The notes beneath the pieces were generated by a model. It did no database searches and was not told where the DNA came from. It saw only the letters and a program-made list of their open reading frames with translations. Shown here piece after piece: positions 54,394-63,018 of a stretch of DNA of 64,000 nucleotides. The stretch lies in the NCBI RefSeq assembly GCF_013085465.1, contig NZ_CP049838.1, positions 5,828,001 to 5,892,000 on the forward strand, written 5' to 3'. Both the position numbers and the translations under genes were made by a program. Position 1 is the first letter of the stretch. The number at the start of each line of letters is the position of its first letter. Origin of the DNA: Streptomyces asoensis. Its GTDB lineage: Bacteria; Actinomycetota; Actinomycetes; Streptomycetales; Streptomycetaceae.

Positions 54394-57270
54394 TCATAGA
54401 GCGCGCGTCGCATACGCCCTGACGTCCGCGTCGGAGTCCGTCGTCGCCGTGGCGAGGGCCGCGCGGGCGGCTTCCGAGGCACGGTGCCGGGTCAGGGCGA
54501 GGACGGCGGCCTTGCGGACGTCGGCATTCGGGTCGGCCAGGGTCTTGGCGAGGACGGGGAGGGCCGTATCCGGGTGGGCCACCGACAGCGCGGTGGCGGC
54601 ACCGGCGCGGACCTGCCAGGCGGGGTCGGCCAGGGCACTCACGGCCCGCGCGGCGAGTGGCACCGGGCAGCCGGTGGTGCCCAACGCCCCGTAGGCAGCG
54701 GCACGCACCAGGGCGTCGGGGTCGTCGACGAGCCCGACGAGGGCCGCGTGGACGGCGTCGCGCTCGACGGCGATACCCGCATCGGAGCCGGTGCTGACGC
54801 CGGAGCCGGGGCCGTCGCCGGGGCCGTCGCCGGAGTCGGCGTCGGCCGGTGAGGTGTCGCTCAGGCGTCCGGCCGCCACCGTGGCCAGGGACTTGGCGAT
54901 CGTGACGCGGACCTCGCGGGACGGGTCGGCGGTCGCCGCGCGGGCCAGTTCCTCGGCGGCGTCGACGGAGACCAGGGCGCGGACGGCCTCGATACGGACG
55001 GCGATGTCGGCGTCGGTGAGAGAGTCCGCGAACAGGGCGGCGTCACCGAGGCGCAGGGCACGCAGCACATCCAGGGCCGCGGCGCGGACGACGGGGTCGG
55101 GCTCGGCCAGGGCGGCGGCGAGGCCGTCGCGCAGGGCCGGTTCCGCCGGCAGGGTCTCGACGAGTTCGCGCAGCGAGGCCGCCGCGGCGGCACGCACCTC
55201 CGCGGAGGGGTCGCGCAGCGCCTCGGCGAGGGCCGGACCGGTGCCCGACGGCACGGTCTCGGTGAGGACGGCGACGGCCTCGCGCCGGACAGCGGCCACC
55301 GGGTCGGCCAAGTAGGGCAGCAGGGAGTCGAGTTCGGGCTCGTCCTCGGCGAGGGCGACGAGTTCGAGGAGGCGAACGGACGACTGAGGGGAGGACTGAT
55401 CGAGGGCGGGTTCGGGCGCCGGAAGCGCCGAGCCGTCCGTGACCTGCGGGGCTGCCGCCTCGGCCCCGGTGGCGAGGGGCGCCACGTCCCGTGAACCGGC
55501 CGTGGCCACGTCCTCGGGGTGGACTTCGCCGAGTGGCCGGGACGGGCCGCCGACGGGGGTGAACTCGTCGACCGGAACCAGATACGGAGCCACGGGCCGG
55601 GCCGTGAACTCCATCGCACCAGAGGGGGACTTGTGCAGATCAAGGTGATGGAACCAGGAGGCGTCGTCACGGCGAGGGTGGTCGAGGCGGTCGTGGTAGA
55701 GGCCCCAGCGGGACTCGGTACGAGCCAGGGAGGCGCGCGCGGCCATCTCCGCGCAGTCACGGATGAAGGAGACCTCGGCGCACCGCATCAGCTCGTGCGG
55801 GGTGCGGGCACCCATCTCGGCGATGTCGTCGCGCATCCGCTCGAAGGACTCCAGGGCCAGCGACAGCCGCGCGCCCGACTTCGGCGGGGCCACGTAGTCG
55901 TTCACGAAACGGCGCAGCTTGTACTCGACCTGGGGCTGCGGCGGGCCCTCCGGGTTGCGCAACGGGCGGTAGATCAGCTCGTGCGCCTCACGCAGCTGGT
56001 CGGCGGGAAGCTCACCGTCGTACGCCTTGTACCGGGCCGCGTCCGAGCCGGCCAGGTCGCCGAAGACGAACGCGCCGATCATGTAGTTGTGCGGGACGCA
56101 GGCCAGGTCGCCGGCGGCGTACAGGCGGGGGACGGTCGTGCGGGCGTGCTCGTCCACCCGTACGCCCGAGGCCGAATGACCGCCGCACAGGCCGATTTCC
56201 GAGATGTGCATCTCGATGTCGTGCGTGCGGTAGTCGTGACCGCGTCCGGAGTGGAAGGTGCCCCGGGTCGGACGCTCGGTGGAGTGCAGGATCGACTCCA
56301 GGGCCGAGATCGACTCCTCGGGGAGGTGGCTCAGCTTCAGGTACACCGGGCCCCGGTCGCTGGCGACCTCCGCCGCGAACTCGGCCATCATCTGGCCCGA
56401 CCAGTAGTCGGAGTCGACGAAGCGTTCGCCGTGCCGGTTGACCTGGTAGCCACCGAAGGGGTTGGCGACATAGGCGCAGGCGGGACCGTTGTAGTCCTTG
56501 ATCAGCGGGTTGATCTGGAAGCACTCGATGCCGGTCAGCTCCGCGCCCGCGTGGTAGGCCATGGCGTAGCCGTCGCCCGCGTTGGTCGGGTTCTCGTACG
56601 TGCCGTACAGGTAGCCGGAGGCGGGCAGGCCGAGGCGGCCGCAGGCGCCGGTCGCGAGGACGACCCCGCCCGCGCGGACGGTGACGAACTGTCCCGTGCG
56701 GGTGTTGAAGCCGACCGCCCCGATGGCGCGCCCGTCCTCGGGCGAGGTCAGCACACGCACCGGCATCACCCGGTTCTCGATGCGGATCCGCTCCCGCATC
56801 TCGCGCCGCCGCAGCTGCCGGTACAGCACCTTCTTGACGTCCTTGCCCTCCGGCATGGGCAGCACATAGGAGCCGGAACGGTGGACCTGGCGGACCGCGT
56901 AGTCGCCGTGCTCGTCCTTCTCGAACTTCACGCCGTACGACTCCAGGCGCTGCACCATGGCGAAGCCGCGGGTGGCGGTCTGGCGGACGGTGGACTGGTC
57001 GACGATGCCGTCGTTGGCGCGGGTGATCTCGGCGACGTAGTCGTCGGGCTCCGCGCGGCCGGGGATGACCGCGTTGTTGACGCCGTCCATGCCCATCGCG
57101 AGGGCCCCGGAGTGGCGGACATGGGCCTTCTCCAGGAGCAGGACGTCCGCGCCGCGCTCGGCGGCGGTCAGGGCCGCCATGGTGCCGGCGGTACCGCCAC
57201 CGATGACGAGGACGTCGCAGGTCAGCTCCTCGGCGTCGCCGAGCGCGGGGATCTGGAGGAGGGTGTCCAC
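54394..57270 (-). CDS. AprA/fumarate-reductase-like flavoprotein fused to HEAT repeats
   Basis: 958 aa from GTG 57270 (AAAGG 8 nt upstream). Residues 1-~600: FAD-type succinate dehydrogenase/fumarate reductase fold (VLVIGGGTAGTMAALTAAERG at 20-40, then HSGALAMGMDGVNNA, later GLCGGHSASGVRVDEHA and LYAAGDLACVPHNYMIGAF), closest in plan to the alpha subunit of adenylylsulfate reductase. Residues ~630-958: at least eight HEAT-type repeats of the pattern DP...VR.AA..AL (e.g. LADPVAAVRREAVAVL, DPSAEVRAAAAASLREL). Last gene of an operon with a ferredoxin and ABC importer, so it probably oxidises or reduces the imported compound. Substrate unknown; the fusion is unusual. Confidence 0.87.
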   Translation of the reverse strand: MDTLLQIPALGDAEELTCDVLVIGGGTAGTMAALTAAERGADVLLLEKAHVRHSGALAMGMDGVNNAVIPGRAEPDDYVAEITRANDGIVDQSTVRQTATRGFAMVQRLESYGVKFEKDEHGDYAVRQVHRSGSYVLPMPEGKDVKKVLYRQLRRREMRERIRIENRVMPVRVLTSPEDGRAIGAVGFNTRTGQFVTVRAGGVVLATGACGRLGLPASGYLYGTYENPTNAGDGYAMAYHAGAELTGIECFQINPLIKDYNGPACAYVANPFGGYQVNRHGERFVDSDYWSGQMMAEFAAEVASDRGPVYLKLSHLPEESISALESILHSTERPTRGTFHSGRGHDYRTHDIEMHISEIGLCGGHSASGVRVDEHARTTVPRLYAAGDLACVPHNYMIGAFVFGDLAGSDAARYKAYDGELPADQLREAHELIYRPLRNPEGPPQPQVEYKLRRFVNDYVAPPKSGARLSLALESFERMRDDIAEMGARTPHELMRCAEVSFIRDCAEMAARASLARTESRWGLYHDRLDHPRRDDASWFHHLDLHKSPSGAMEFTARPVAPYLVPVDEFTPVGGPSRPLGEVHPEDVATAGSRDVAPLATGAEAAAPQVTDGSALPAPEPALDQSSPQSSVRLLELVALAEDEPELDSLLPYLADPVAAVRREAVAVLTETVPSGTGPALAEALRDPSAEVRAAAAASLRELVETLPAEPALRDGLAAALAEPDPVVRAAALDVLRALRLGDAALFADSLTDADIAVRIEAVRALVSVDAAEELARAATADPSREVRVTIAKSLATVAAGRLSDTSPADADSGDGPGDGPGSGVSTGSDAGIAVERDAVHAALVGLVDDPDALVRAAAYGALGTTGCPVPLAARAVSALADPAWQVRAGAATALSVAHPDTALPVLAKTLADPNADVRKAAVLALTRHRASEAARAALATATTDSDADVRAYATRAL

Positions 57271-57281
57271 CGGGGTGCCTT

Positions 57282-58080
<799 letters not shown>

Positions 58081-58097
<17 letters not shown>

Positions 58098-58962
58098 CGC
58101 GCGCCTCCTCGGGGTCGGGTCCGGTGCGGACGGCGGGGGAGGCCGCCGGTGCCGGAACGGCCGGCAGGGGGCTCTTCGGCCGGGTCCGGCCGGTGGGGAC
58201 GTACGACGTGCGGGGCAGCCAGCGGGTGAGGCGGCGACCGAGGAGTTCCACGGCCGTGGACGTGGCCCAGCCGAGCACGCCGATCGTGACCATGCCGACG
58301 AACACCCCCGGGTAGTCGACGACCGTGTAGTCCTGCCAGGTGCGGTAGCCGACGCCGTACTGACCGGAGATCATCTCGGCGGAGATCACACAGATCCACG
58401 ACACCCCGATGCCGACCGACAGGCCGCCGAAGATGCCCGGCAGCGCCCCGGGCAGGACGACCGAGCCGAGGATCCGCCACCGGCCACCGCCCATGGTGCG
58501 GACCGCCTCCTCCCACCCGGGGGGCAGCGCGCGGACCGCGTGCCGGGTGGAGACCAGGACCGGGAAGAAGGCGGCGGTGAAGGTGATGAAGACGATGCCC
58601 TGTTCGTTGGAGGGGAAGAGCAGGATCGCGACGGGCACCAGGGCGATCGCGGGGATCGGGCGGACGACTTCGAGGATCGGTCCGAGCAGGTCCTCGGCGA
58701 GCCGCGAGCGCGCCACGAGCACGCCCGTGGCCACGCCCAGGACGGCGGCCAGGAGGAATCCGGTGACGATGCGGGTGAGGCTGTCGGTGAGGTCGGTCCA
58801 GTAGTCGTCGCCGGTCAGGCGGTCGGCGAAGGCGCGGGCCACGTCGGCGACCGTGGGGAACTGCGAGAAACGCAACCACAGGTCGATGTTCAGGCTGGTC
58901 AGCAGCTGCCACAGGCCGAGGGCGGCCGCCACCGAGGCCACCCGCAGCGCATACCGGGTCAC
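58081..58962 (-). CDS. ABC importer permease, sulfonate/nitrate type
   Basis: 293 aa from GTG 58962, overlapping the binding-protein stop by 4 nt. Six or so helices and the BPD_transp_1 coupling loop EEAVRTMGGGRWRILGSVVLPGALPGIFGGL (quoted in parts of the EAA motif: EAVRTMGGG, then VVLPGALPG). The C-terminal ~35 residues are Pro/Ala-rich and cytosolic. Belongs to the SsuC/TauC group. Confidence 0.94.
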
Positions 58963-60299
58963 GACACCCGCCCCAGCGCGTCGGCGTACGTGACGACGCG
59001 GGCGCCGCCATGGGAGTCGACGTAGGCCTGCGCGGTCGCCGGGGCGACGAACGGCAGGAGCGTCGCGCCGTCGGCCACCCAGACGGCCTTGTCGGCGAAC
59101 CACAGGGTGCCGGTGGTGGCGTCGGGGACGTAGGCGGCGCGGATGCCCTCCTTGTGCTGCGCGACGTAGGTCAGCAGCTCGGCGGGCGTCTCGAAGGTAC
59201 GGGTCTCCGTGGCGTCCTTGGGCCAGACCTCGCTCGCGGCCGGTGCGGGCGTGGCGGCGAGCTGCTTCGCGTAGGACGGGCCGAGCGCCTTCTTCACGTA
59301 CTGGTCGTCGACGAAGGAGTCCACGTCGATGTCTCCGGTCAGCTTGGCCGCCTTCAGGATCGAGACGTCCTCCTTGAGCGCGGCGACGAGCTGCGGCTTT
59401 ACGGCCGGGTCGAAGGTGGAGATGCCGTGGGCGCCGTTGTAGAGGTAGACGACCTCGGCGGGCAGGCCGGTGGCCTTGGCGACCTTCTCGGCGGCGGCCA
59501 CCGGGTGCGTGTCGAGGTAGTCGGTGGCTTCCGACTGCGCCTTCAGGAACGCCTCCAGCACGGCCGGGCGCTTCTTCGCGAAGTCCTCGCGGGCGGTGAC
59601 CCCGTGGAAGGTGGGCAGGTCCAACTGGGCGCCGTCGTACAGGGCCTTCGCTTTGCCCTGGTAGGCGAGCAGGCCGGGCCAGGCGACGAACTGCGAGAGC
59701 GCGTCGGCGCTGCCCGCGGAGAGGGCCGACGCGCCGACGGCCGGCTGCTGGTTGAGCTTCTCGATGCCCTTGGCCGGGTCGATGCCGGCGCGCTGCAAGG
59801 CCCGTACGAGGGTGCCGTCGGCGGCGGAACCGATGCTGGTGGAGACCTTCTTGCCCTTGAGGTCCTCGATGGAGGCGAGCTTGGAGTCGGGCGCCGTGAC
59901 GATGGTGTTGAGGCCGCCGCGGAGGTTGTAGCCGGTGACCGAGACCAGGTGGGTGGGCTTGCCGAGCTGTTTGCCCCGGGCCGCGTTGATGAGGAGCGGG
60001 AAGTCGCCCATCGAGCCGATGTCGATCTTCCCGGCGGTCATCTGCGCGGTGATGGGGGCGCCGGTGGCGTAGTCCTGCCAGTCCACCTTGTAGGTAGTGC
60101 CGTCGCCGAGGGCGTTCAGCTCCTTCTCGAAGTAGCCGAGTGAGCGCAGGAGGGTGCCGGCCGTGACGGTGTTGATGGTCTTGGACTGGTAGCCGACGGT
60201 GACGGTGACCGTGGAGCCGCTACCGGCCTCGGCGCTGCCGCATCCGGTGAGGGGGAGCAGGAGAAGGGCGGCGGACGCGGCTGTCGCTTTGGGTTTCAT
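58959..60299 (-). CDS. ABC binding lipoprotein (SsuA/NrtA type) with NosL-like C-terminal domain
   Basis: 446 aa from ATG 60299. Lipobox LLPLTGC at residue ~14-20, so membrane-anchored outside. Residues ~30-345: NMT1/SsuA-type periplasmic binding fold (TVGYQSKTINT, IDIGSMGDFPLL, GKKVSTSIGSAADGTL). Residues ~345-446: an extra domain (AAYVPDATTGTLWFADKAVWV, LPFVAPATAQAYVDSHGGARVVTYADAL split here into pieces) resembling the C-terminal half of NosL, a copper-handling lipoprotein of nitrous-oxide reductase systems. Typical SsuA proteins lack this tail. Ligand unknown. Confidence 0.9.
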   Translation of the reverse strand: MKPKATAASAALLLLPLTGCGSAEAGSGSTVTVTVGYQSKTINTVTAGTLLRSLGYFEKELNALGDGTTYKVDWQDYATGAPITAQMTAGKIDIGSMGDFPLLINAARGKQLGKPTHLVSVTGYNLRGGLNTIVTAPDSKLASIEDLKGKKVSTSIGSAADGTLVRALQRAGIDPAKGIEKLNQQPAVGASALSAGSADALSQFVAWPGLLAYQGKAKALYDGAQLDLPTFHGVTAREDFAKKRPAVLEAFLKAQSEATDYLDTHPVAAAEKVAKATGLPAEVVYLYNGAHGISTFDPAVKPQLVAALKEDVSILKAAKLTGDIDVDSFVDDQYVKKALGPSYAKQLAATPAPAASEVWPKDATETRTFETPAELLTYVAQHKEGIRAAYVPDATTGTLWFADKAVWVADGATLLPFVAPATAQAYVDSHGGARVVTYADALGRVS

Positions 60300-60314
60300 G
60301 GAGGTTCGGGCCTT

Positions 60315-60542
60315 TCACCGGAGCAGGTAGGGCATGTTGACCGTGACGGCACCGGTGGGACAGCGAGCCGCGCACGGGCCGCAGTACCAGCACTCGTCGA
60401 CGTGCATGTAGGCCTTGCCGTTGCTCTCGTCGATGGCGAGGGAGTCCAGCGGGCACATGTCCACACAGAGCGTGCAGCCGTCGATGCACTTCGACTCGTC
60501 GATGGTCACGGGCACGTCGGCCCGCTGGGGTGCCAAGGTCAT
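60315..60542 (-). CDS. two-cluster 4Fe-4S ferredoxin, AprB-like
   Basis: 75 aa from ATG 60542 with GGAG 7 nt upstream. Cluster ligands Cys19, 23, 26, 30 (CIDGCTLCVDMCP, with one extra residue between the first two) and Cys51, 54, 57, 61 (ECWYCGPCAARCP). The pattern CWxCxxCxxxCPxGA equals that of adenylylsulfate reductase beta subunit AprB, without its C-terminal tail. First structural gene of the operon; likely electron partner of the flavoprotein at 54394. Confidence 0.92.
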   Translation of the reverse strand: MTLAPQRADVPVTIDESKCIDGCTLCVDMCPLDSLAIDESNGKAYMHVDECWYCGPCAARCPTGAVTVNMPYLLR

Positions 60543-60552
60543 GGCTGTCTCC

Positions 60553-60582
60553 AGAAAAGTCCCGAGAAATTCTGAGAAATCC
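60553..60582 (-). repeat. three 10-bp direct repeats upstream of the ferredoxin gene
   Basis: On the minus strand, GGATTTCTCA, GAATTTCTCG and GGACTTTTCT follow one another (60582-60553), i.e. one helical turn apart, just before the ribosome site of the ferredoxin gene. Within them AGAA-T-TTCT is a small palindrome. Possible regulator site. Observed by eye. Confidence 0.5.
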
Positions 60583-60692
60583 CGCCCGGCGGTGAACCGA
60601 TGAGGCCGTGCCGAGCGATGAAGGGTTGAGGGCGGAGCGGAGGACGAGCAAGAGGGCGGAGAAGGGGGCGGAAGCGATGCCGGTGGGAGAGA

Positions 60693-61481
60693 TCAGAGGG
60701 AGCGGTGCAGCAGGCCGCTCATCGAGATGCGGTCTCCGCGGAAGCGGATGAACTCCAGGTCCACCGGGCGGCCGTCGGCGAGGTGGGTGAGGCGTTCGAG
60801 CATCAGGACGGCCGCGCCACGCGGTGCCTCCAGTACGGCGGCGGAGTGGGCGTCCGCGGTCACCGCCTCCAGGGTGATCTCGGCGTGGCCGAGGCGCTGC
60901 CCGGTGACTGCCTCCAGGAGCCGGAAGACGTCGGTGTTCTCCAGGTCGGCGCCGAGCAGGGCGGTGCCGATGTCGAGCGGGATGTAGGTGAGATCGAGAG
61001 AGAGGGGGAGGCCACCCAGACGGCGCAGGCGCTCGATGTAGAGCACGTCGGTGCCGGGCGGGACATGGAGGCGGTCGGCCACCGGGGCGGGCGCGGCGAC
61101 GGGGCCCATCGTGCGGACCTCGTTGGTGACGTGGCCGTGCTCGTGCAGGGTCTCCGCGAGGCCCATCAGACGGTCCAGGCCGTGCGGGTACTTCTGCGCC
61201 ACGACGACCGTGCCGACGCCCGGCAGGCGCTCCACCAGCCCCTCCGCCCGGAGCAGGTCGAGAGCCTGGCGGACGGTGTTGCGCGAGGCGCGGTAGTCGC
61301 CGGCGAGGGTCGACTCGTGGGGGAGCGTGCCGTCCGGGAAGCCGTCGGTGAGCAGCTGGCGGCGCAGGAGGTCCGCGAGCTGTCGGGCCTGGTCCGCGCG
61401 CAGCCGACGACGCGCACGGTGGGCGGCGACGGTGGTCGCGCCTTGGCCGGCGTGCTCTCGGATGCGGTCGGTGGGTGGCAT
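60693..61481 (-). CDS. GntR/HutC-family transcription regulator
   Basis: 262 aa; ATG 61481 (ATG 61493 possible). N-terminal winged helix of GntR type at ~20-90 (HESTLAGDYRASRNTVRQAL, then LRAEGLVERLPGVGTVVV), then a UTRA ligand domain at ~100-255. Same strand as and 150 bp upstream of the ferredoxin-ABC-flavoprotein operon, so it probably controls it in response to the imported compound. TATGGT 7 nt before the ATG may be a -10 of a leaderless message. Confidence 0.92.
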   Translation of the reverse strand: MPPTDRIREHAGQGATTVAAHRARRRLRADQARQLADLLRRQLLTDGFPDGTLPHESTLAGDYRASRNTVRQALDLLRAEGLVERLPGVGTVVVAQKYPHGLDRLMGLAETLHEHGHVTNEVRTMGPVAAPAPVADRLHVPPGTDVLYIERLRRLGGLPLSLDLTYIPLDIGTALLGADLENTDVFRLLEAVTGQRLGHAEITLEAVTADAHSAAVLEAPRGAAVLMLERLTHLADGRPVDLEFIRFRGDRISMSGLLHRSL

Positions 61482-61606
61482 GTTTCGAACCATAGCGAGC
61501 CAGTAGGAAAAGCGGTGTTGCCGGAGTGTTGCGCCACCTGCGGGAGCGTCAGACAAGGCGTTGACCTGGGAAAACAGGACCGGCTTACACAAGATCTGCC
61601 AGGTCG

Positions 61607-61648
61607 GGACAACGCCGTCAGGACAACGCCGTCAGGACAACGCCGTCA
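61607..61648. repeat. three perfect tandem copies of a 14-bp unit
   Basis: GGACAACGCCGTCA repeats exactly at 61607-61620, 61621-61634 and 61635-61648. The stretch spans the stop codon of the M56 peptidase gene (61632) and the upstream region of the GntR gene. It could be a replication-slippage repeat or a multi-copy operator. Confidence 0.92.
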
Positions 61649-62570
61649 GTCCCGGGGCGAAGGTGATCAGCAGGGGCAGCAGCGGCACCAGCGTGGCCAC
61701 CGTCGTCGTCAGCGCCCGCTGTCTGAGGAGCAGGCGCGGGGGCGGCTGGAGCAGGCGGTCGACCCGCTCGCCCAGGAGACGGTGGCTGGAGGCGCAGGAC
61801 AGGACGCCCCGGTGCTGGTTCAGCTCGATCAGGGCCAGCGCCGTGGTCAGGTGACCGCAGCGGCGCGACGCCGTGTCGTCGGCGGCGAGTTCGACCAGGC
61901 GGTGGGTCTGGTCGCAGAAGTGGGAGAAGAGCGGAATGCGGGGGAAGCCGGTGGCAAGGGCGGTCGAGAGGTGGAGCAGCCAGTCATGGTGGGCGCGGGC
62001 ATGGCCACGCTCATGGGTGAGGACGGCGTCCAGCTGGTGGGAGGTGAGGCGGTGCAGGGCGCCGGTCGTCACGATCAACTGGGGCGGGTTGCCCGGCATC
62101 CACCAGGCGTCCGGGTACTCGTCCTCCAGCACCAGGAGCGGGCCCCGGGCGGACGGCAGGCCGGCGGGCAGGTCGGGCGCGCGTTCACGCAGGTGGGCCC
62201 TGGCCCGGTTGCGGCGCCGACGCGCCTCGACAAGCTCGCGGGCCAGCATCGCGGTGGTCCAGGCGGCCCCGCAGGCCAGCAGCAGGGTCAGGGCCGCGGC
62301 CCACAAGGGGGCGGCGGAGAGGTCGTACGCCTCGGAGACCCCAGGCGGCGCGGGAGCGAAGACCCGGGCGCGGACCGTGTGGAACACGGCGGCGGCGCCC
62401 AGGGTCAGGGCGGTCAGGCAGCACAGCAGGACCGTGGCGACCAGGCACTGCCACACCCACAGTCCGATCACCGGCTCCCGCTCGGGCCAGGCGGACCGGG
62501 TGAGCGCGCGCGGGGCCGGCACGGCGGCGGACAGGGCGACGACGCTCAGCAGGAGCAGGCAGAGGGCCAT
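61632..62570 (-). CDS. M56 family membrane metallopeptidase (BlaR1/MecR1-like)
   Basis: 312 aa from ATG 62570 with GGAG 8 nt upstream. Three or four helices surround a cytosolic zinc-peptidase with His186-Glu187-x2-His190 (THERGH) and a downstream Glu in VELAADDTASRR. BlaR1 relatives cleave a BlaI-type repressor after sensing beta-lactams, but this protein lacks the C-terminal sensor domain, as do many actinomycete M56 proteins. The expected BlaI/MecI gene, normally just upstream, is absent here. Confidence 0.9.
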   Translation of the reverse strand: MALCLLLLSVVALSAAVPAPRALTRSAWPEREPVIGLWVWQCLVATVLLCCLTALTLGAAAVFHTVRARVFAPAPPGVSEAYDLSAAPLWAAALTLLLACGAAWTTAMLARELVEARRRRNRARAHLRERAPDLPAGLPSARGPLLVLEDEYPDAWWMPGNPPQLIVTTGALHRLTSHQLDAVLTHERGHARAHHDWLLHLSTALATGFPRIPLFSHFCDQTHRLVELAADDTASRRCGHLTTALALIELNQHRGVLSCASSHRLLGERVDRLLQPPPRLLLRQRALTTTVATLVPLLPLLITFAPGLTALS

Positions 62571-63018
62571 GCCATGGGCTCCGGATCCTGGTCGGGAAGG
62601 GTGCGTGGGCCACGTGCGCGCGGGGTCCGTAGGGCGTACCCGCGTGCGTGCGGCCTGCCACGGGCGGCGGGCTCGGCACGAGGACCGTGCCCGCCGCCAG
62701 TATGACGGCGGTTACCCCGGGAGTCAGCCCACGACGACACCCCGATTCAGCCCCGACCGCCCCGGCTCGCCGGCCTCGCCACTGTCAGCCACCCCACCAC
62801 CGGCTCGGTCACCGACACCGCTACCGCCACCGGCACCGCTACCGCCACCGGCACCGCTACCGCTACCGCCACCAGCACCGCCACCAGCACCGGCACCGGC
62901 ACCGGCACCGCCACCGCCACCAGCACCGGCACAGGCACCGACACCGGCACAGGCACCGATGTCGGCACCGGCACGAGCTGTGGCCCTGTCACCGGTGCCA
63001 GATCCGACCCCGGGCGCT
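62571..63018. repeat. hexanucleotide-repeat intergenic stretch
   Basis: Between M56 and the fumarylacetoacetase. Positions about 62810-62975 consist of imperfect ACCGGC/ACCGCC/ACCGCT-type hexamers. A frame on the minus strand from GTG 63022 to 62747 overlaps the fumarylacetoacetase stop by 4 nt (GTGA) and would encode 91 aa made mostly of Val/Pro/Ala alternations (VPVPV, VAVAV). It may be a coupled small gene or only a by-product of the repeat. No BlaI gene and no clear promoter seen. Confidence 0.7.

Follow-up and report, generated by a model that had tools for sequence, protein, structure and literature searches.

A flavoprotein–ferredoxin–HEAT gene set of APS-reductase lineage in Streptomyces asoensis, and its possible role in sulfur scavenging

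The flavin-type 3′-phosphoadenosine 5′-phosphosulfate (PAPS) reductase of Methanothermococcus thermolithotrophicus (MtPAPSR; PDB 8a8o; PMC10322725) combines a flavin adenine dinucleotide (FAD) alpha subunit, which belongs to the fumarate reductase family, with a small 2[4Fe-4S] beta subunit. According to PMC10322725, MtPAPSR keeps the catalytic residues of adenosine 5′-phosphosulfate (APS) reductases, its Trp206 and Tyr207 take part in FAD binding, and its Trp42 may carry electrons. Dissimilatory APS reductase, AprAB, follows the same two-subunit plan. We describe here a locus of Streptomyces asoensis in which an enzyme of this lineage is encoded together with an ABC importer resembling those of the SsuABC–SsuD and TauABC–TauD systems. 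The locus lies in a stretch of 64,000 nucleotides (the window; contig NZ_CP049838.1, positions 5,828,001 to 5,892,000 of the forward strand) of a 10.04-Mb single-contig genome. Flavoprotein, ferredoxin and HEAT protein recur as a constant unit in three phyla, the importer is a common but not obligatory addition, and the flavoprotein most likely acts, as judged from its active-site positions, on a substrate other than APS and PAPS.

The window system shares with MtPAPSR a related ferredoxin and keeps the equivalents of its Asn57 and His346. However, all 100 family sequences have Leu, Tyr, Glu and Glu in place of Arg237, Trp206, Tyr207 and Tyr72 of MtPAPSR, the small subunit has 75 amino acids instead of 104, and a HEAT component and an importer are added. 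Unlike AprAB, the window proteins lie far under the AprA and AprB cut-offs and have lost Arg265, and the locus is without sulfate-respiration genes. The likeness to SsuABC–SsuD and TauABC–TauD lies in importer class, in sulfur neighbours at other loci and in the role that the locus may have. Unlike in those systems, neither the monooxygenase SsuD nor the dioxygenase TauD is found among the genes of the window locus, the enzyme is of FAD/Fe-S type with no evident O2 step, and the binding protein carries a putative NosL-like C-terminal domain that sets it apart from SsuA, whose family cut-off it does not reach. The parts are of known kinds. Within the literature searched, the enzyme of three parts, in which active-site positions are altered, is together with this importer apparently an uncharacterised variant.

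The genes and domains, all on the minus strand, are as follows.

54394..57270, minus strand: AprA-like FAD oxidoreductase fused to HEAT repeats, 958 amino acids (Pfam FAD_binding_2, Succ_DH_flav_C and HEAT)
55561-57270, minus strand: FAD part of the flavoprotein, N-terminal ~570 amino acids
~54397-55386, minus strand: HEAT repeats of the flavoprotein, C-terminal ~330 residues, with a low-confidence linker between them and the FAD part
57282..58097, minus strand: ABC ATPase of TauB/SsuB/NrtD type (ABC_tran, 97.1 bits)
58081..58962, minus strand: ABC permease of SsuC/TauC type (BPD_transp_1, 77.9 bits)
58959..60299, minus strand: SsuA/TauA-fold substrate-binding lipoprotein, 446 amino acids (NMT1-type Pfam match)
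~58980-59249, minus strand: putative NosL-like extra domain at the C-terminus of the binding lipoprotein
60315..60542, minus strand: predicted 2[4Fe-4S] ferredoxin, 75 amino acids, with an AprB-like CWYCGPC motif (Fer4_7)
60693..61481, minus strand: GntR/HutC-type regulator with UTRA domain (Pfam GntR 50.2 bits, UTRA 123.4 bits)

Flavoprotein, ferredoxin and HEAT part

The flavoprotein exceeds the cut-offs of two NCBIfam families, PRK13800 (1635.6 bits against 1196) and PRK08275 (866.1 against 587), both labelled ‘fumarate reductase/succinate dehydrogenase flavoprotein subunit’ in the database. With the SdhA/FrdA model TIGR01812 it scores 137.8 bits against a cut-off of 567.3, and the sequence gives no support for the function that this name claims. 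Scores are likewise below the cut-offs of AprA (TIGR02061; 129.3 against 641.75 bits) and of PRK06854, which was used for flavin-type PAPS reductases (258.4 against 557 bits). The best PDB match of the FAD part is the alpha subunit of MtPAPSR (8a8o_A; 192.8 bits, 281.8 by profile), followed by AprA (109 bits) and by E. coli-type SdhA and NadB (78-80 bits). Two paralogues in the host genome align across most of the FAD part with 28-30% identity, and an AprA search of that genome gave nothing over the cut-off.

Active-site positions were compared in an alignment of 100 family sequences with MtPAPSR and AprA, using A. fulgidus numbering. The family sequences were 13 of set A1, 7 from actinobacteria and those of 80 named loci; the latter, all Pseudomonadota by title, rank highest in likeness to a Cupriavidus protein among at least 589 found in a scan of species genomes. 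In every family sequence Arg265 of APS reductase is replaced by Leu, Tyr95 by Glu, Trp234 by Tyr and Tyr235 by Glu, while Asn74 is kept in all 100; His346 of MtPAPSR is kept as His365 of the flavoprotein. The replacing residues are Leu256, Glu81, Tyr225 and Glu226, respectively, in the numbering of the flavoprotein. We take Arg265, Tyr95, Trp234 and the other compared AprA positions to be catalytic in APS reductase. Because the equivalents of Arg265, Tyr95, Trp234 and Tyr235 are replaced throughout, the flavoprotein most likely has a substrate other than APS and PAPS. The AprA/fumarate-reductase plan assigned to this protein in the original prediction agrees with its AprA/MtPAPSR lineage, but it does not extend to an active site of APS type.

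The original prediction also saw an AprB-type cluster in the ferredoxin, and this agrees with the motif CWYCGPCAARCPTGAV, its 8 cysteines and PDB matches to AprB (3gyx_B and 1jnr_B) and to the beta subunit of MtPAPSR (8a8o_C), although several polyferredoxins score higher. DECW of this motif is present in 100 of 100 ferredoxins examined. The 8-cysteine pattern, with ligands for two predicted [4Fe-4S] clusters, was found in 99 and, on inspection, also in the last one (L022). At the level of sequence the protein thus has the two ligand sets and the Trp by the second cluster that are typical of an AprAB-type small subunit, and it reaches 36.3 bits with the AprB model TIGR02060 against a cut-off of 135.65. 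Trp52 of the ferredoxin should be the counterpart of residue 42 of MtPAPSR beta, as judged from alignment ends only.

The AlphaFold2 model of the full flavoprotein has a mean pLDDT of 63.0. Most of residues 207-370 score below 50, and the larger share of the HEAT part is confident. Since HEAT protein and flavoprotein are fused in actinobacterial loci, contact between them is suggested.

Distribution of the core and the importer

The core of flavoprotein, ferredoxin and HEAT protein occurs in Actinomycetota, Cyanobacteriota and Pseudomonadota, and recurrence of the gene set across three phyla is far beyond chance. The original prediction would have failed if these genes had proved unlinked in other genomes; on the contrary, they are strongly linked. 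Gene counts for Pseudomonadota use 70 of the 80 named loci, the other 10 having short flanks. Ferredoxin and HEAT protein are present in all 70, GntR in 69 and DUF971 in 59; dedicated binding protein, permease and ATPase are each present in 48, and 22 loci are importer-less. Importer-less loci numbered 26 altogether, and 24 of their genomes (L105 and L115 being left out) were searched as a whole for the dedicated binding protein at E <=1e-30. It was found in one (L078) and not in the other 23, and the positive controls L042 and L050 were both recovered. Since the importer accompanies just 48 of 70 loci, and a search of 24 genomes with importer-less loci failed to detect its binding protein in 23, the constant unit is the enzyme, to which the importer is a common addition. 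Hence, the original view of an importer-plus-flavoprotein unit has to be changed to one of flavoprotein, ferredoxin and HEAT, with HEAT as a third component in its own right. It is still supported that a specific compound, which may be an organosulfur one, is taken up and converted by flavin/Fe-S redox chemistry, although not with an importer as an obligatory part elsewhere.

HEAT is a separate gene in all non-actinomycete loci seen. Of ten actinobacterial regions fetched, L027 and L028 (33-34% identical relatives) and L029 (a 100-residue match) were left out of the operon counts. The nine loci counted (the window, L020-L026 and L030) have the complete set with importer, and HEAT is fused to the flavoprotein in all of them. 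Mrp/NBP35 accompanies 4 of 4 cyanobacterial plasmid loci; in the nine actinobacterial ones neither it nor DUF971 was seen close to the core.

Within the phyla the set is widespread and patchy. At least 589 stretches of species genomes encode a flavoprotein relative, and a protein search of a plasmid collection gave 51 records, 48 of which cover >=80% of the query. Their identities are 80-90% in one, 60-80% in 14 and <60% in 36, the lowest being 54.8%, and the hosts include Nonomuraea, Tsukamurella, Nostoc, Pseudanabaena, Leptolyngbya, rhizobia, Cupriavidus, Paraburkholderia, Methylocystis, Methylobacterium, Acidithiobacillus and Acinetobacter. In a sample of 296 Actinomycetota genomes, 16 had flavoprotein matches at E <=1e-40: eight at >=81% identity over nearly the whole query, seven at 30-34% and one fragment. 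Among 101 Streptomyces genomes, 35 have the flavoprotein (E <=1e-100). The binding protein (E <=1e-60) was found in 33 of these 35 and in no others; in the remaining two the contig ends before its gene would be reached (that of G308 begins 1.6 kb upstream, and that of G373 has 4314 bases). Correlations between distance matrices of 43 loci were 0.91 for flavoprotein and HEAT, 0.87 for flavoprotein and ferredoxin and 0.86 for flavoprotein and binding protein; the species tree was uncontrolled, and these values are not counted as evidence.

Some loci depart from the common pattern. The sequence G288:C1:764682-764981 (L014, L029) is 81% identical to flavoprotein residues 29-128 alone and is possibly a remnant. 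In Nostoc edaphicum (L031, 11704-14885) five extra genes, for two HAD hydrolases, a methyltransferase, a GNAT protein and a VOC protein, lie between flavoprotein and ferredoxin. The HEAT gene of Mesorhizobium sp. AR07 (L125, 10957-11914) is annotated as two overlapping pieces and may be broken or mis-called. In addition, thiCOSG adjoins the gene set in two Rhizobium plasmids (L124, L129).

An SsuABC-type importer had been expected at the window locus and was found. The six best structural matches of the binding protein are all SsuA or TauA, in rows that mainly cover residues 28-350, and its main domain has the SsuA/TauA fold; with the SsuA model TIGR01728 it reaches 142.2 bits against a cut-off of 163.5. 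Its C-terminus gives 22.3 bits with NosL (PF05573) against a gathering score of 24, and a NosL match at E <=0.1 occurs in 8 of 10 binding-protein members scanned (best 2.9e-6). The ATPase scores 215 bits with TauB of NCBIfam against a cut-off of 357. The permease scores 133 bits with SaoP, 127 with ntrB and 111 with TauC, all under cut-off. A role with organometals, considered for the SaoP name and the NosL-like domain, was dropped, as the SaoP cut-off is 295 bits.

Operon layout, regulator and neighbouring DNA

The close packing of five minus-strand genes behind a GntR/HutC regulator, as originally proposed, was borne out by the Pfam matches and the spacing. The gaps are 150 bp between gntR and ferredoxin, 15 bp between ferredoxin and binding protein and 11 bp between ATPase and flavoprotein; permease and ATPase overlap by 17 bp. 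The permease frame is open to a GTG at 59103, and an alternative start, GTG 58962, overlaps the binding-protein stop, giving a 4-bp GTGA overlap if this start is used. The gntR frame is open as far as 61592, with ATGs in frame at 61493 and 61481.

61489..61536, minus strand: putative gntR promoter region, with TGGCGCAAC at 61536-61528, then GGCAACAC, and TATGGT at 61494-61489 just before the ATG

Of nine actinobacterial loci inspected, eight have the pattern TGGCGCAAY ahead of gntR; the ninth (L021) has TGGCGGAAT, one base off. The extended pattern TGGCGCAAYN{4,6}GGYAA has 1 match in the 10-Mb genome, as does the backwards control, and a scan for the sigma-70 consensus called no promoter upstream of gntR. 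This block is possibly a regulated, leaderless promoter, in which TATGGT would serve as the −10 element. Three of the four cyanobacterial plasmid loci encode a LysR protein beside the set, and it carries a domain 29-37% identical to the dedicated binding-protein family, compared with 20-27% to other SsuA-type proteins.

Neighbours of the locus in Streptomyces asoensis are nuo, recQ and genes for an M48-type peptidase and a fumarylacetoacetase. A 14-bp unit in 3.4 tandem copies (61603-61649) lies upstream of gntR, directly after the M48-type peptidase gene, and was found in the window only among nine actinobacterial upstream sequences compared. Between the peptidase and fumarylacetoacetase genes there is a degenerate 6-bp repeat (CACCGG) of ~30 copies (62798-62974).

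Sulfur neighbours and the proposed role

Twenty annotated regions of the plasmid collection were read for neighbouring genes. Exporters of TauE/SafE or TSUP type are encoded in six (L034, L038, L040, L122, L123, L124), and YeiH or putative sulfate exporters in three, each right behind core and mrp on the same strand. One region each has metX with a sulfhydrylase, a rhodanese with 3-mercaptopropionate dioxygenase, and sulfate and sulfonate importers with TauD. Ten families, most of them linked to sulfur with few exceptions, were chosen for comparison with the 80 named loci, and 21 loci have one or more of them at >=80 bits. The matches include TauD beside a TauABC-like importer (L107, L113, L118), sulfate-binding proteins in five Caballeronia loci and one Trinickia, and NtaA-type monooxygenases in five loci. 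A second sulfonate-type binding protein (>=100 bits) occurs in 6 of 80, three of them Ralstonia; the background of 82 such proteins in 160 Mb, from 22 of these genomes, gives 0.59 expected per 1.14 Mb of flank. An ATPase near the core in Ralstonia (L088) was rejected as a sulfonate importer, since the binding protein next to it is of sugar type by Pfam. Enrichment of sulfur neighbours is modest and post hoc.

Our tentative reading, to which we give somewhat less than an even chance, is that the locus serves sulfur scavenging by ferredoxin-linked cleavage of an imported organosulfur compound, with sulfite passed to the resident sulfite reductase. The compound brought in by the SsuABC/TauABC-type importer would be a small organosulfur one, either sulfonate-like or related to such compounds. 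The FAD subunit of AprA lineage would, in the cytoplasm, take electrons from the AprB-like ferredoxin and cleave this compound, the HEAT part being a structural third subunit, and sulfite, or a product readily giving it, would go to the ordinary cellular sulfite reductase. The ligand switch would be the GntR/UTRA protein and, in other phyla, Crp/Fnr or LysR fused to a binding-protein domain. We infer that the substrate is an organosulfur compound, that the reaction is reductive and yields sulfite, and that HEAT has this structural role. The organosulfur substrate is suggested by the SsuA/TauA fold and by the sulfur neighbours elsewhere (exporters, tauABCD-like genes, sulfate/sulfonate importers and rhodanese). 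As the set contains no second constant enzyme, cleavage by a single enzyme is the most economical assumption. Three things favour the reductive release of sulfite: the ferredoxin partner, a nearest relative that is a reductase, and two loci at which FdxA is accompanied by ferredoxin-NADP reductase (behind the set, Methylobacterium radiotolerans) or by an FAD oxidoreductase (A. caldus). In the host genome a gene of sulfite-reductase type (NIR_SIR) and two of CysH type (PAPS_reduct) lie together at ~7.72 Mb, ~1.8 Mb from the locus, so that the original statement of no sulfate-reduction genes is correct for the locus and not for the genome.

Several observations weigh against sulfur scavenging. 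The change of Arg265 to Leu and the two invariant Glu argue, as far as sequence goes, against a sulfate-ester-type mechanism. None of the ten families was found at 59 of the 80 named loci; they were chosen after the plasmid neighbours had been seen, and the background was measured for one family alone, partly in genomes picked for having matches. The matches are also non-independent, since six form one Caballeronia/Trinickia pattern and three are Ralstonia. Queries with TauE/SafE and YeiH, and with FdxA and ferredoxin-NADP reductase, matched nothing in the 80 named loci. TauE/SafE proteins differ in function. Finally, no sulfur gene was seen adjoining the locus in Streptomyces asoensis.

The main alternative, which we consider rather unlikely, reverses the electron flow: the flavoprotein would be a dehydrogenase of an imported, still sulfur-containing compound, with electrons leaving via the ferredoxin and sulfite lost later or elsewhere. 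The fumarate reductase superfamily has many dehydrogenases, SdhA and NadB structures match the FAD part, and with the APS-type Arg gone the two invariant Glu are possible bases; the lack of any match to the FdxA and ferredoxin-NADP reductase queries in the 80 named loci also suits it. However, the nearest relatives are MtPAPSR, a reductase, and AprA, and the two loci with FdxA next to a reductase or oxidoreductase gene speak for the opposite direction. We also think a sulfur-free substrate improbable, for instance a pyrimidine or else an aromatic or nitrogen compound, which would make the sulfur neighbours incidental, as the six top structural matches of the binding protein are SsuA or TauA and several lineages repeat sulfur genes near the set. 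A very unlikely possibility is a cofactor service without catabolism, in which HEAT and ferredoxin, with DUF971 and Mrp/NBP35, build or repair an Fe-S enzyme. The frequency of DUF971 in proteobacterial loci and of Mrp/NBP35 in cyanobacterial ones is in its favour, but a dedicated importer in 48 of 70 loci, regulators of ligand type and the nine actinobacterial loci lacking both proteins near the core are not, and DUF971 and Mrp may just mature the clusters of the flavoprotein system itself. A flavin-type assimilatory APS or PAPS reductase duplicating CysH, though suggested by the top PDB match and by the retention of APS-reductase catalytic residues in MtPAPSR, is highly improbable given the replacements in 100 of 100 sequences, the scores with PRK06854 and AprA, the CysH-type genes already in the host and an importer that would serve no purpose.

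As the original prediction supposed, we found no characterised pathway with this exact gene set in the open-access literature. A study of the flavoprotein system was not found there either, in a search that excluded most subscription papers, supplements and fitness databases, where a phenotype may exist; by term search, the main texts of the sulfur papers PMC8557817, PMC7661421, PMC13352529 and PMC3868597 have no mention of the set. The gene set is common (35 of 101 Streptomyces genomes, 51 plasmid records and at least 589 stretches of species genomes), yet obscured by a doubtful label. A compact operon, and genomes that have the core without the importer, allow its role to be tested directly in laboratory strains. 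If sulfur scavenging is its function, APS-reductase-type machinery would have been re-tooled for another substrate, and the soil and cyanobacterial sulfur cycle would have a new enzyme class. It is a more doubtful thought that this ferredoxin-driven FAD/Fe-S/HEAT enzyme would cleave organosulfur compounds without O2 in aerobic soil bacteria and cyanobacteria, as a third route beside SsuD-type monooxygenases and TauD-type dioxygenases.

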